Shown: positions 36,072-51,198 of the stretch, one piece after another | Position numbering within the stretch: the first letter of the stretch is position 1 | How the letters are laid out: every line of letters starts with the position of its first letter | Made by a program: the position numbers and the translations under genes | Assembly: GCF_019550915.1 (NCBI RefSeq) | Contig: NZ_JAHWCI010000008.1 | Span: forward strand, 496,001 to 560,000 | DNA from: Mumia sp. zg.B17 | GTDB lineage: Bacteria > Actinomycetota > Actinomycetes > Propionibacteriales > Nocardioidaceae | Direction of reading: 5' to 3' | Length of the DNA: 64,000 bases | The notes under the pieces: generated by a model | What the model was told of the DNA's origin: nothing | Databases searched by the model: none | What the model saw: only the letters and a program-made list of their open reading frames with translations

Positions 36072-36183
36072 GGTGCCAGCGTACGGTGCGAGGGCGACAC
36101 GTATGACCGTGTCGGTGGCGCCGAGTTGTCCGAATGAGGGACACTGAGAAGTGCGTGACAATTTCTTCGGTCAAGGAGAACCC

Positions 36184-36861
36184 GTGGACAACGACGTACT
36201 TCGACAGGCACCTCTCTTCTCGGGCCTCGACGACGAAGCCGCCGAGTCGCTCGGCTCTCAGATGTCGTCGGCACGCCTGCGTCGCGGCGAGGTGCTCTTC
36301 CACGAAGGCGACGAGGGCGACCGGCTCTACATCGTCACCGACGGCAAGATCAAGCTCGGGCGCAGCTCGGCGGACGGCCGCGAGAACCTCCTCGCGATCC
36401 TCGGCCCCGGGCAGATGTTCGGAGAGCTCTCCCTGTTCGACCCGGGCCCGCGCTCGGCGACGGCGACCGCGGTGACCGACTCCGAGCTCACGAGCCTGAG
36501 CCACGACGAGCTCACCAAGTGGCTCAACGACCACCCCAACGTCGCCCGCGCCCTCCTCGGTCAGCTCGCCTCGCGTCTGCGTCGGACCAACGACGTCGTG
36601 GCAGACCTGGTGTTCTCCGACGTCCCGGGCCGTGTCGCCAAGGCGCTCATCGACCTCTCGCAGCGCTTCGGGCGCAAGGCCGACGACGGAATCCACGTCC
36701 ACCACGACCTCACGCAGGAGGAGCTCGCCCAGCTCGTCGGCGCCTCCCGCGAGACGGTCAACAAGGCGCTGGCCGACTTCGCGATGCGCGGATGGCTGCG
36801 GCTCGAGCCGCGCTCGGTCGTGATCATCGACCCCGAGCGGCTCTCGAAGCGCGCCCGCTGA
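36184..36861 (+). CDS. crp: cAMP receptor protein-type regulator
   Basis: A 225-residue Crp/GlxR transcription factor (Rv3676 equivalent). The cyclic-nucleotide domain has VLFHEGDEGDRLYIVTDGKI and the phosphate-binding cassette MFGELSLFDPGPRSATATAV. The recognition helix lies in LAQLVGASRETVNKALADFA. The GTG at 36184 is chosen because AAGGAG lies 5 bases upstream and the protein then aligns with the mycobacterial N-terminus; a GTG at 36151 lacks this. A weak Crp-like palindrome (TGAGA-N6-TGACA, 36145-36160) could permit autoregulation. An array of 21-bp repeats starts 12 bp after the stop. Confidence 0.95.
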   Translation: MDNDVLRQAPLFSGLDDEAAESLGSQMSSARLRRGEVLFHEGDEGDRLYIVTDGKIKLGRSSADGRENLLAILGPGQMFGELSLFDPGPRSATATAVTDSELTSLSHDELTKWLNDHPNVARALLGQLASRLRRTNDVVADLVFSDVPGRVAKALIDLSQRFGRKADDGIHVHHDLTQEELAQLVGASRETVNKALADFAMRGWLRLEPRSVVIIDPERLSKRAR

Positions 36862-36873
36862 CCCCTGGAGCCC

Positions 36874-36978
36874 GCGGGTCACCCTCTTGCGCTCGCGGGT
36901 CACCCTCTTGCGCTCGCGGGTCACTCCCTGCCGCTCGCGGGTCAGTCTCTGCGGTCCGCGGGTCACCCCTGTGGATAG
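36874..36978. repeat. 21-bp tandem repeat half-array 1 (five units, GCGGGTCA orientation)
   Basis: Five units begin at 36874, 36895, 36916, 36937 and 36958, an exact 21-bp period. Each begins with GCGGGTCA and ends with a CGCTC-like segment; the middle 6-8 bases vary (CCCTCTTG, CTCCCTGC, GTCTCTGC). It is the reverse complement of the units at 37936-38061, and of the second half of the array at 50932-51198. It lies directly behind crp and before the nuclease-like gene. Confidence 0.95.
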
Positions 36979-36993
36979 CGCCGACCAACCGCC

Positions 36994-37935
36994 GTGCGAC
37001 CGCTGTTCGATGTGGCGATGCGCAACCTCATCAACGACGGGCTGCCGTTTCGTGGTCGTGACCATGCCGCCGCGGGCCTCGCGAGCGAGTCGGACCTCCG
37101 CCGATCGATCGCTCAGAAGCAGATCCGCGGCGTCTTCAAGTCGGTCTACGTGGATGCACGGGTGCCGGACACGAGACTGCTCCGCGTCCGAGCCACTCGC
37201 CTCGTCACCCCGCCGCACGCGATCCTCAGCGACTGCTTCGCGGCGTGGTTGTTCGGGGTCGACACCTTCCGGCCGAGCGAGCGCCACCTCCTGACACCGA
37301 CCTTGGTGACGCCGCACGGTGTGGGCAGGGTCCGCGCCGACGGGGTGACGTGCCGACAGGCGTTCCTTGCCGATCCCGACGTCACCGAGGTCGACGGCAT
37401 CCGTGTGACCAGCCCGCTACGGACCACGTCCGATCTTCTTCGGCGGCAACGACGGCCGTACGCCCTCGCCTCCGCCGACGGGATGGCTCGCGCCGAGCTC
37501 GTCGACATCGAGCAGCTCGTGGACTACGTCGACGAGCTCAAGGGCTATCGCGGAGGCCCGCAGGCGCGCGAGCTCGCGCGCTTCGTCGATCCAGGCGCGG
37601 AGTCCCCCGGGGAGTCGTGGCAGCGGCTCCGCATGCTCGACGCCGGCTTCCCGCGCCCGCAGACGCAGATCCTCGTGACCGACGCGTGGGGCCGGGACAG
37701 GCGGTTCGACATGGGCTATCTGCACCTCCTCCTTGCCGCCGAGTACGACGGCCGCGAGTTCCATACGGGCGCGGACTCAGCTCGGCACGACGAGGAGCGC
37801 CGAACCTACTTCGAGCGCCGGTACGGGTGGCGGTTCGTGATCGGAACGCGGGAGACGATCTTCGGCACAGACCCCGCGTTCGAGCTCGCGATCGGAGAGC
37901 TGCTCGGGATCACTCCGCTCGCGCGCCGCTGGTAA
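36994..37935 (+). CDS. AbiEi/DUF559-like protein with nuclease-type C-terminal domain
   Basis: A 313-residue protein of a type common in many divergent copies in actinobacteria. The N-terminal ~100 residues resemble a winged-helix AbiEi-like region (SESDLRRSIAQKQIRGVFKS). The C-terminal ~100 residues follow the DUF559/Vsr-like endonuclease pattern: Glu in ESPGESWQRLRMLD, Asp in GRDRRFDMGY and Glu-containing LLAAEYDGREFH, ending in FERRYGWRFVIGTRETIF. Nuclease activity is inferred, not shown. The gene is exactly bounded by two oppositely oriented 21-bp repeat half-arrays and separates crp from its usual convergent neighbour. The start could also be the ATG at 37018. Confidence 0.75.
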   Translation: MRPLFDVAMRNLINDGLPFRGRDHAAAGLASESDLRRSIAQKQIRGVFKSVYVDARVPDTRLLRVRATRLVTPPHAILSDCFAAWLFGVDTFRPSERHLLTPTLVTPHGVGRVRADGVTCRQAFLADPDVTEVDGIRVTSPLRTTSDLLRRQRRPYALASADGMARAELVDIEQLVDYVDELKGYRGGPQARELARFVDPGAESPGESWQRLRMLDAGFPRPQTQILVTDAWGRDRRFDMGYLHLLLAAEYDGREFHTGADSARHDEERRTYFERRYGWRFVIGTRETIFGTDPAFELAIGELLGITPLARRW

Positions 37936-38061
37936 TGACCCGCGAGCGCAAGAGGGTGACCCGCGAGCGCAAGAGGGTGACCCGCGAGCGCCAGACAGTG
38001 ACCCGCGAGCGCCAGACAGTGACCCGCGAGCGCCAGAGGGTGACCCGCGGGCGAAAGGGGG
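37936..38061. repeat. 21-bp tandem repeat half-array 2 (six units, TGACCCGC orientation)
   Basis: Six units start at 37936, 37957, 37978, 37999, 38020 and 38041. Five begin TGACCCGCGAGCG, the last TGACCCGCGGGCG; the 8-base remainder varies as CAAGAGGG, CCAGACAG, CCAGAGGG or AAAGGGGG. The first unit begins on the base after the TAA of the nuclease-like gene; the last ends 2 bp before the MBL stop codon. Confidence 0.95.
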
Positions 38062-38063
38062 TG

Positions 38064-38867
38064 TCAGGGGCGGGCGCGGAGATAGTCCAGCTGCGCCCGC
38101 ACCGAGAGGGTCGCCGCGGGCCAGAGGACGGGGTCCACGTCCGCGTACACCGTACGGACGACGTCGTCGGCTGTCTCCGACCCGGCCTCCAGCGCTGCGC
38201 GGACCTGCTCGAGACGCTCCTCGCGGTGGGCACGGTATGCGTCGATCACCGCGCCGGCGTCCGGCAGGACGGGGCCGTGCCCCGGATAGAGCCGGACCGC
38301 ACCGTCGACCGAGTCGACCGAGTCCACCGCCCGGCGCAGCGTCCACAGGGAGTCGAGATAGGGGCCCAGCGCCCCGTCGGGGTGGGCGACGACCGTCGTG
38401 CCGCGTCCGAGGACCGTGTCGCCCGACAGCAGTGCGGCATCGTCGCGCAGCAGGAACGACACGGAGTCGGTGGTGTGTCCAGGAGTGGCGACGACCTCGA
38501 GCCGTACACCGTCGACCTCGACGACCTCCCCGTCGACCAGCGGGTCGGCGGCCAGGCACAGCGTCGGGTCGATCGCACGTACCGGAGCCCCCGACAGGTC
38601 GGCGAACCGCGCCGCACCCTCGGTGTGGTCGTGGTGGCGGTGCGTCAGCAGCACGACACCGACCGGCGCGGCGACCTCCAGCACGCGGCGCAGGTGCGGC
38701 TCGTCCAGCTCGCCCGGGTCGATGACGACCGACCGCGTCTCCGCGGTCGCCTCCGGGGACCGCAGCACCCAGGTGTTGGTGCCGTCCAGCGTCATGTGCC
38801 CCGGGTTGTCCTCACGGACGCAGGTCGCCCACGCGCTCACGACTCCGCCGTCGAACCTCTCGCTCAC
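38064..38867 (-). CDS. Metallo-beta-lactamase-fold hydrolase (Rv3677c/LACTB2 type)
   Basis: A 267-residue MBL hydrolase. Metal ligands are seen in LLTHRHHDHTEGAARF, ATPGHTTDSVSFLL and LLSGDTVLGRG, with a final His in RLYPGHGPVLPDAG. LACTB2 relatives cleave RNA or thioesters; the substrate here is unknown. Its GTG overlaps the Nudix stop. Last gene of the DUF4177-ridA-nudix-mbl operon and normally convergent with crp; here the repeat arrays and the nuclease-like gene intervene. Confidence 0.88.
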   Translation of the reverse strand: MSERFDGGVVSAWATCVREDNPGHMTLDGTNTWVLRSPEATAETRSVVIDPGELDEPHLRRVLEVAAPVGVVLLTHRHHDHTEGAARFADLSGAPVRAIDPTLCLAADPLVDGEVVEVDGVRLEVVATPGHTTDSVSFLLRDDAALLSGDTVLGRGTTVVAHPDGALGPYLDSLWTLRRAVDSVDSVDGAVRLYPGHGPVLPDAGAVIDAYRAHREERLEQVRAALEAGSETADDVVRTVYADVDPVLWPAATLSVRAQLDYLRARP

Positions 38868-39682
38868 GGCAGCTCCGTCTCCAGATAGAGGTCGCCGTCG
38901 ACCTCCACGAGGCGCGGCAGCACCGGGACGATCCGACGGTGTGCCGCCACATCGAGGGCATCGGCCGCCGCCGACAGCTCCGACAGCTCGCGGCACGTGA
39001 TGGCGGTCGGCGGCAGCATCGCCATGTCACCGGCGTCGACCGAGGCGAGGGCCGCGCCCAGCGGCATCCACGAGGCGTGGTCAGCCTCCCCGGTGAGGGT
39101 GCCGACCCGCTGCCCCTGCGGCATGACCGCGACGAAGAAACGTGTGTCGAACCGCTTGGGCTCGAAGTCGGGGGTGATCCAGTGCGTCCAGGCGGCGAGC
39201 AGATCGGTCCGCAGGACCAGGGCGCGGCGCTCCAAGAAGTCGGAGAACGCCAGCGTGTGGGCCTCCAGCGCCTCGCGGTCAGCCTGCCAGTCGGCACCGC
39301 TCGTGTCGTCCACGACCGTGTCCGCGTCGGGGCCTGCGAGCAGGACGCCCGCTTCCTCGTACGTCTCGCGCACCGCCGCGCACACCAGCGCGCGCGCCAG
39401 CTCGGTCGAGCACCCGAGACGCTCGGCCCAGGCCTCCGGCTCCGGACCGGCCCAGGCCACATCGGTGTCGGAGTCGCGCGGGTCGACGCCGCCACCGGGG
39501 AACACGTACATCCCCGCGGCGAAGGACATCGACCGCTGCCGGCGCATGAGGTACGCCTCGACACCGTCAGCACCGTCGCGCAGCAGCACGACGGTGGCGG
39601 CGTCACGCGGCACCGCGGGGTCAGCAGACCCGCGGTGCGCGTGCTCGGCGATGGACGAGGGCAGCGGCACGCGCATCGTCAT
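38864..39682 (-). CDS. Nudix hydrolase
   Basis: A 272-residue Nudix protein. The box is recognisable in two parts, YVFPGGGVDPRDSD and ALVCAAVRETYEEAGVLLAG, with a long helical insertion between its first Gly-rich part and the REXXEE-like segment, as in the NUDT19/RppH-distant group. It may degrade CoA-like or nucleotide derivatives. It overlaps both neighbours by 4 bp in the operon. Confidence 0.82.
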   Translation of the reverse strand: MTMRVPLPSSIAEHAHRGSADPAVPRDAATVVLLRDGADGVEAYLMRRQRSMSFAAGMYVFPGGGVDPRDSDTDVAWAGPEPEAWAERLGCSTELARALVCAAVRETYEEAGVLLAGPDADTVVDDTSGADWQADREALEAHTLAFSDFLERRALVLRTDLLAAWTHWITPDFEPKRFDTRFFVAVMPQGQRVGTLTGEADHASWMPLGAALASVDAGDMAMLPPTAITCRELSELSAAADALDVAAHRRIVPVLPRLVEVDGDLYLETELP

Positions 39683-50915: not shown

Positions 50916-50931
50916 CCCCGCCCTTCCGCTC

Positions 50932-51198
50932 GCGGGTCACTCTCGTCCGCCCGCGGGTCAGTCCCTGGCGCCCGCGGGTCAGTCCCTGGCGCCCGCGGGT
51001 CAGTCCCTGGCGCCCGCGGGTCAGTCGCTGGCGCCCGCGGGTCGATCCCTGGCGGTCGCGGGTCAGTCCCGGTGACCCGCGAGCGCACGACAGTGACCCG
51101 CGAGCGCACGACGGTGACCCGGGAACACCCGACGGTGACCCGCGAGCGCATGAGAGTGACCCGCGAGCGGAAGAAGGTGACCCGCGAGCGGAGGAAGG
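50932..51198. repeat. Head-to-head 21-bp repeat array 3 (seven plus six units)
   Basis: Units in GCGGGTCA orientation start at 50932, 50953, 50974, 50995, 51016, 51037 and 51058. After a short junction (GTCCCGG), units in TGACCCGC orientation start at 51073, 51094, 51115, 51136, 51157 and 51178. Every step is exactly 21 bp. Cores are nearly invariant, while the 8-base variable part differs between units. The two halves are complementary, so a transcript could form a hairpin about 130 bp per arm. It fills the gap between two convergent genes. Confidence 0.96.

Follow-up and report, generated by a model that had tools for sequence, protein, structure and literature searches.

In RAYT/REP systems (PMC3116915), a single-copy nuclease-type gene stands beside its own type of repeat, which is dispersed extragenically; a genome may have several such genes, and each then has a repeat to itself. 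AbiEi proteins autoregulate by way of 23-bp repeats (PMC7319586). The EDxHD motif is treated in PMC3943268 and PMC6083498; PMC10448857 and PMC3985639 were consulted as well. None of the DUF559 literature covered seems to describe arrays of the kind reported here, and in the literature covered, which took in few of the subscription journals, neither such arrays nor a link between them and AbiEi/DUF559-type genes was found described.

The current work concerns a 64,000-nucleotide stretch of the Mumia sp. zg.B17 genome, referred to as the window. Its genome (G000; 3.86 Mb in 18 contigs) was compared with five other Mumia genomes (G001 to G005). In the window, a crp-family regulator gene (36151..36861, plus strand; cNMP_binding 1.2e-27, HTH_Crp_2 3.5e-17; TGA stop at 36859-36861) converges on a gene of the metallo-beta-lactamase fold (MBL; 38064..38996, minus strand, as listed; the ORF ends at 38064 and the true start may give a shorter frame). 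Behind the crp stop lies a left arm of five 21-bp units (36873..36965, plus strand), with the core CGCGGGTCA at 36873, 36894, 36915, 36936, and 36957. A right arm of six 21-bp units (37936..38049) has the same core on the minus strand, at 37936, 37957, 37978, 37999, 38020, and 38041; the spacing is exactly 21 bp in both arms. The arms bracket a single plus-strand gene of 305 aa, counted from ATG 37018 (37018..37935). Its TAA (37933-37935) directly abuts the first right-hand TGACCCGCG at 37936. The ORF list gives GTG 36994 as the start, which is still possible; ATG 37018 fits better, by eye, to the N-termini of the homologues in G004 and G005. All of this agrees in its coordinates with the original prediction of five units after crp and six inverted units before MBL. 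The claim that the halves belong together is also borne out, as they are inverted, of one unit type, and 84% complementary across 107 nt with spacers counted. SGCGGGTCA has 24 matches in the window against 4.5 expected, and the largest number in 100 shuffles was 10.

Between the left array and the gene, the motif CCTGTGGAT occupies 36968..36976 on the plus strand. CTGTGGA/TCCACAG lies at most 150 nt upstream in 56 of 67 family genes versus 15 of 1087 control windows. We take the motif, at 36968-36976 in the window and in the upstream flanks of the family, to resemble an actinobacterial DnaA box.

In models, the bracketed protein consists of a DNA-binding half of AbiEi type (residues ~1-191) joined to a Vsr/DUF559/EDxHD-like nuclease half (~194-298). 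Likeness of the first half to AbiEi is indicated by PADLOC (2.8e-11) and by Foldseek (6y8q, 7.6e-4); Pfam AbiEi_1 falls just under its cut-off (22.0 vs 22.2 bits). The C-terminal half matches Pfam DUF559 in seven of nine members and MTES_1575 in all nine, and its predicted fold is that of the EDxHD/Vsr catalytic domain; the Foldseek match of this half is weak when taken alone (E 0.93). E199, D231, H249, and D258 are kept in 62-67 of 67 rows of the alignment, and we take them to be candidates for the E, D, H, and D catalytic residues of EDxHD. The nuclease half may belong to the Vsr/EDxHD group as a remote member. A sequence search of solved structures gave no match, and NCBIfam anti-phage ProA gave weak hits in two of nine members.

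The locus resembles RAYT/REP in that the gene is flanked by a repeat dispersed in its own genome, and in that several genes of a genome can each have a separate repeat. It differs in protein and in repeat. The family has Pfam AbiEi, DUF559, and MTES_1575, and no Y1 (HUH) tyrosine transposase; its units are 21-22 bp long, non-palindromic in the close family (by eye, the window unit TCGCGGGTCACTCTCTGGCGC is not a palindrome), and arranged as tandem inward arms, mostly at convergent gene ends. PF01797 was found in none of the six Mumia genomes and in five of 14 control genomes. Dispersal of the units by a RAYT was rejected on account of the absence of PF01797 from the six Mumia genomes. The best reading of this comparison is a system analogous, but unrelated, to RAYT/REP, with a like logic and with two defining features failing. 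Unlike EDxHD homing endonucleases such as I-Bth0305I, and unlike Vsr, the protein has an AbiEi-like DNA-binding half, no intron or intein is involved, and the sites are dispersed multi-unit arrays rather than one target gene. Pfam DUF559/MTES_1575 proteins are alike in the C-terminal half. In contrast to AbiEi/Rv2827c antitoxins, the AbiEi-like part is fused to a nuclease-like half and matching repeats occur genome-wide. An AbiEi-like protein is shared with AbiE systems, but the gene is not bicistronic with an AbiEii nucleotidyltransferase toxin at the window's locus; because the toxin partner is missing there, the locus is not regarded as an AbiE toxin-antitoxin pair.

A pair of CGGGTCA cores spaced by 21 bp was counted 93 times in G000, and the reversed-pattern control gave 0. 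There are 19 array sites in this genome, counting both window sites and excluding two isolated pair matches (L053, L054); 12 are two-armed and seven one-armed by script criteria. The second window site (50931..51186, both strands), a gene-free head-to-head array with inner cores 7 bp apart, is real, as had been claimed for an uninterrupted array near 50932. About 15 of the 19 sites lie between convergent genes, from a reading of ORF calls and sequences; two (L040, L050) lie between co-directional genes, and L039 and L046 were assigned to neither class. Most dispersed units follow closely on a stop codon where two genes converge. Across five Mumia genomes, every two-armed site (40 of 40) has inward-facing arms, a count that includes the doubtful L039, whose arms lie 1.3 kb apart within one long ORF. 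Genes other than the family gene are also found between arms in G000, at L042 and L047; we take these to be msrB-like and cobalamin adenosyltransferase-like, respectively.

A gene next to an array often ends on the array's own TGA (L038, L041, L042, and L045; at crp in G003, G004, and G005). Since units like GACGCGTGGGTT have no TGA at that position, a role of the arrays as stop codons was rejected and the overlap is taken as incidental. At L044, L050, and L052, a GC-rich hairpin separates the stop codon from the array, and the hairpins of L044 and L052 are present also in relatives without an array. A terminator role was rejected, as such hairpins already precede some arrays.

Relatives of the bracketed gene were found in 101 of 149 Nocardioidaceae genomes (E 1e-25) and, in the class-wide search, in 68 of 296 genomes (E 1e-20); flanks were scored in 73 loci. 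In the best 30 loci (the window's locus and 29 fetched from the Nocardioidaceae search), the upstream flank compared with the reverse-complemented downstream flank scored at least 17 in 29, the exception being L216 with 11, and direct comparison of the flanks gave 7-13. Mismatched locus pairs scored 14 at the 95th percentile, 36 at the 99th, and 56 at maximum, the high values being ascribed to related genomes having units in common. Tandem structure of 20-23 bp above 0.667, the maximum of 590 control windows, was present in 28 of these 30 loci (L215 and L229 fell below), 16 of them having it on both sides. Among close homologues, the sequence and period (21 or 22 bp) of the flanking unit vary between lineages, and the gene varies along with the unit.

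Thirteen crp-linked or nearby Nocardioides-type loci were scored as well; some of their gene starts are perhaps misplaced, and one contig is truncated. Two gave no hit. Among the remaining 11, an inverted score of at least 17 was reached in four, and a tandem array stood on one or both sides in nine. In 32 further class-wide loci (four of them the window genome's own paralogues), the inverted score was at least twice the direct score in 18; the 14 below twofold include the most distant members. The inverted match was not clearly above the direct match in the distant relatives L324-L327 and L329 and in the own paralogues L033-L035. Some class-wide loci have other unit lengths, such as CCGTGATCATGCACGTTCGCCCC, and the distant members L323 and L032 have palindromic units. 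L032 is a distant paralogue in the window's own genome, flanked on both sides (1295-1370, 2355-2440) by a palindromic CGATTTGTGCAG repeat, a different unit.

Close family copies number one or few per genome (one in G000) despite the many gene-free arrays, and homing is therefore not rampant. The bracketed gene is under purifying selection. A phage or plasmid origin was rejected: relatives were found in 0 of 66 candidate viral stretches, and 72,556 plasmid records gave five weak hits.

The unit that flanks the gene is the dispersed unit of its own genome, and it is rare or absent in the other tested genomes apart from close relatives. If the flanks of a gene indicate which unit is dispersed, a unit would be expected in those genomes that hold its gene, and this was examined unit by unit. 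The 22-bp unit of the G001/G003 type has 64 and 52 matches in these genomes, two in G005, one in G117, and none in eight others (control 0). The unit of the G131/G127/G144 type has 52, 3, and 10 matches, respectively, and none in 15 other genomes (control 0); a 20-mer of G295 has 75 matches there and none in 11 others, including a congener (control 0). The 21-bp GCGAGTCR pair occurs 21 times in G005, six times (isolated) in G002, twice in G001, and not in G003 (control 0). The units are not fully private, as CGGGTCA occurs in both G004 and G000. G003 has an open gene copy at relA and a degraded copy at crp, the latter matched separately in two reading-frame pieces, and this two-copy genome shows two unit families. 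G002 gave no family match at E 1e-25, and in this genome, which is without a close homologue, only relic pairs remain. The weakest fit is G005, with an open gene and arrays at only two of 11 junctions.

Inward-facing arrays with about 1.2 kb between the arms were also seen at G131:C1:1887019-1888498 and G295:C7:536462-537694. In G295, adjacent pairs are inward in 18 cases versus three outward, and the gaps between exact inner units cluster at 7-11, 19-20, 31, and 40-41 bp, in helical phase (R 0.89, n 18; distinct values alone, R 0.80, p 0.0002). This phasing fits contact across the array centre. Mumia shows weaker central-gap phasing (G000, p 0.011; G003, p 0.05) or none (G004, p 0.44); the statistics cover these three genomes, and G001 has two gaps.

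The consensus units of Mumia differ from genome to genome. In G000 the 21-bp unit TCGCGGGTCACTCTCTGGCGC summarises 135 units in 19 arrays. The 21-bp units of G004 and G005 begin with CCCCGGGTCACTCTCTGC (87 units) and tCGCGAGTCACCC (27 units), respectively; the array sites of G005 were covered in part. The 22-bp unit of G001 begins with TCGCGAGTCGCCC (115 units), and the two 22-bp families of G003 begin with CCGCGAGTCACCC (31 units) and TCGCGAGAGACCTCC (64 units). Mean identity of the 11-nt core was 0.855 between different loci of one genome and 0.743 when orthologous arrays were compared across genomes (26 arrays, 26 pairs); the contrast is descriptive only, because units were chosen by their cores.

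Positions are nonetheless shared. Thirteen of the 19 array junctions of G000, matched by their neighbours, have an array in at least one of G001, G003, G004, and G005, with gene plus arrays at relA counted as an array; L283 of G003 is matched without an array at the junction itself, which counts through G004. At 11 test junctions, selected for having arrays in G000, scores above 0.667 were reached at 10/11 in G000, 5/10 in G003, 3/11 in both G004 and G001, and 2/11 in G005; inspection by eye adds some short arrays in G004, G003, and G001. G002 had none of 11 above this value, its highest being 0.64 at J044, where degenerate units are visible; other tested junctions of G002 hold single-unit relics. 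By eye, unrelated repeats fill convergent junctions of relatives at L060 (2190-2560), L063 (4685-4800), L250, L372, and L283; examples are CCACGACGTCGTGGT palindromes in L063 and a long repeat at the crp-MBL junction of G001.

The crp junction allows loci with and without the gene to be compared. Of 80 named crp loci, split by hand from tblastn, 14 have the gene and 66 do not (L104, with a hit 2 kb off, was placed in the gene-free class). A 20-23 bp array score above 0.67 was found at nine of the 14 gene-bearing junctions and at none of the 66 gene-free ones, the highest of which was L138 with 0.67. Because no gene-free crp junction exceeds 0.67, gene and arrays look like a co-evolving pair rather than the product of chance insertion into an older array.

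The original prediction had explained the locus by insertion of a single gene into the centre of a pre-existing array. Part of this idea is supported, since the genome has head-to-head arrays without a gene at other places and the gene family has moved between junctions. Its expectation for relatives was not borne out: the gene-free crp-MBL interval of G002 measures about 30 bp and contains a half-unit relic, that of G001 holds an unrelated repeat, and no uninterrupted array was found there in any gene-free locus at the above threshold. Genes without arrays, or arms with unrelated cores, which had been named as evidence against insertion, were not clearly encountered; both arms have a common core at crp in G000, G004, G005, and the G003 remnant. 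The relA/DUF349 junction of G000 (L041) has an array without a gene, and relatives have the gene there. This array may be a vacated site instead of an untouched target, because on the tree the relA site predates the crp site in Mumia.

Among 67 family loci, 22 are at the relA/DUF349 junction (a label given to loci beside relA or DUF349-like genes), 11 at crp/MBL, and four at one site that we take to be livF-like; the neighbours of the remainder are mostly without labels. In the tree, from which rows L104, L114, L136, L033, L034, and L035 were excluded, the crp site is held by two separate clades, with two changes forced by the starred branches. With midpoint rooting, the five Mumia copies group together (93/84), and the copies at relA (G003, G001) fall outside those at crp (G000, G004, G005; 99/81). 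On this tree, the family gene changes site among convergent junctions. Other genes between arms also vary. At J038, the orientation of a 100-aa gene in G001 is opposite to that in G000, G003, and G004 (by eye also in G002 and G005), and the stop codon of this gene lies within an array unit in both orientations (L262 2380-2920, L289 2480-2990). Plain homologous recombination between the arms could suffice for this flip. A 126-aa gene at J048 in G004 is absent from G000 and G003, and a 190-197-aa gene at J052 in G003 and G004 is absent from G000. Cassette exchange at the J038 site, with a family gene in G013, was considered and dropped because the neighbouring gene is differently oriented.

The association of gene and arrays, the match of flanking and dispersed units, the inward arms, the common positions, and the change of site suggest that gene and repeats evolve and move together. 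The best reading, to which we give an even chance, is that of a homing-like nuclease encoded in the chromosome, whose cognate arrays are dispersed there; binding and cutting are inferred. The AbiEi-type half would probably bind one unit. As 21-22 bp make two helical turns, copies of the unit would be lined up on one face, and arms facing inward would let nuclease halves meet above the centre. Cutting there, followed by repair from another array, is a step to which we give slightly less than an even chance. Such repair would copy units between sites, which would lead to concerted evolution, and it would account for the location of the gene between arms; the same repair may carry the gene from array site to array site, and the stretch between inverted arms may invert. 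On the homing-like reading, the arms at crp/MBL would therefore be the flanks of the element itself. A more tentative proposal, for which the chances are below even, is that the AbiEi-Vsr fusion nuclease writes its own landing pads by seeding, rewriting, and homogenising arrays at convergent gene ends all over a chromosome. As part of the same proposal, and equally tentatively, the inward arms would be used for self-movement and for inverting, gaining, or losing single genes located between arms. Just as tentatively, unit and protein specificity would co-evolve fast, so that lineages and paralogues of the same genome come to have their own repeat.

Conserved positions with changing units would also follow from selection by the host. 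The protein could be a DNA-binding roadblock or insulator with a domesticated nuclease fold, the arrays marking convergent gene ends for termination, collision, or nucleoid function. Sites near stop codons that recur at the same junctions though their units differ, the purifying selection on the gene, and its near absence from the viral and plasmid collections (0/66 and five weak hits in 72,556) agree with such a role. We nevertheless think it unlikely, if worth serious attention. The hairpins at L044, L050, and L052 already precede the arrays, and those of L044 and L052 are kept in array-free relatives; G002 does with no above-threshold array at 11 junctions; the nuclease residues are conserved; and the gene itself lies within an array and relocates. 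That an AbiEi-like repressor merely has operators at its own gene, with dispersed arrays spreading passively by slippage or recombination, is improbable, although AbiEi autoregulation through 23-bp repeats gives a precedent (PMC7319586), and upstream arrays lie close to the start codon with the conserved CTGTGGA motif. Arrays are found downstream of the gene as well, dispersed copies are mostly at gene ends, and passive spread alone would leave unexplained the two units of the two-copy genome G003 and the loss in G002.

Chance insertion of one gene into a pre-existing array of other origin, as first proposed, is disfavoured by the present data, and we consider it a poor prospect. Gene-free inverted arrays in the same genome and the other genes between arms at L042 and L047 would accord with it, but the family gene lies between arrays in many genomes and at several junctions, each time with the genome's own unit, and the gene-free crp junctions above 0.67 number 0/66. 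Least probable of all, and very unlikely, is a type IV toxin-antitoxin or phage-defence gene to which the arrays are unrelated. The PADLOC similarity to AbiEi (2.8e-11) and the weak ProA hits in two of nine members point that way; against them stand the lack of a toxin partner at the window's locus, where the neighbours are crp and MBL, and the match of unit to gene, genome by genome.

In many actinobacterial genera, a candidate trans-acting protein sits inside the repeat that it appears to govern. How genome-wide repeats can differ between species and yet stay in place is a long-standing question about concerted evolution. The natural pairs of protein and site make the co-evolution of a DNA-binding protein with its sites directly testable. 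The system may account for many orphan genes of the DUF559/AbiEi-like type, and its members are candidates for site-specific nucleases, the flanks of their genes showing what the natural targets would be.
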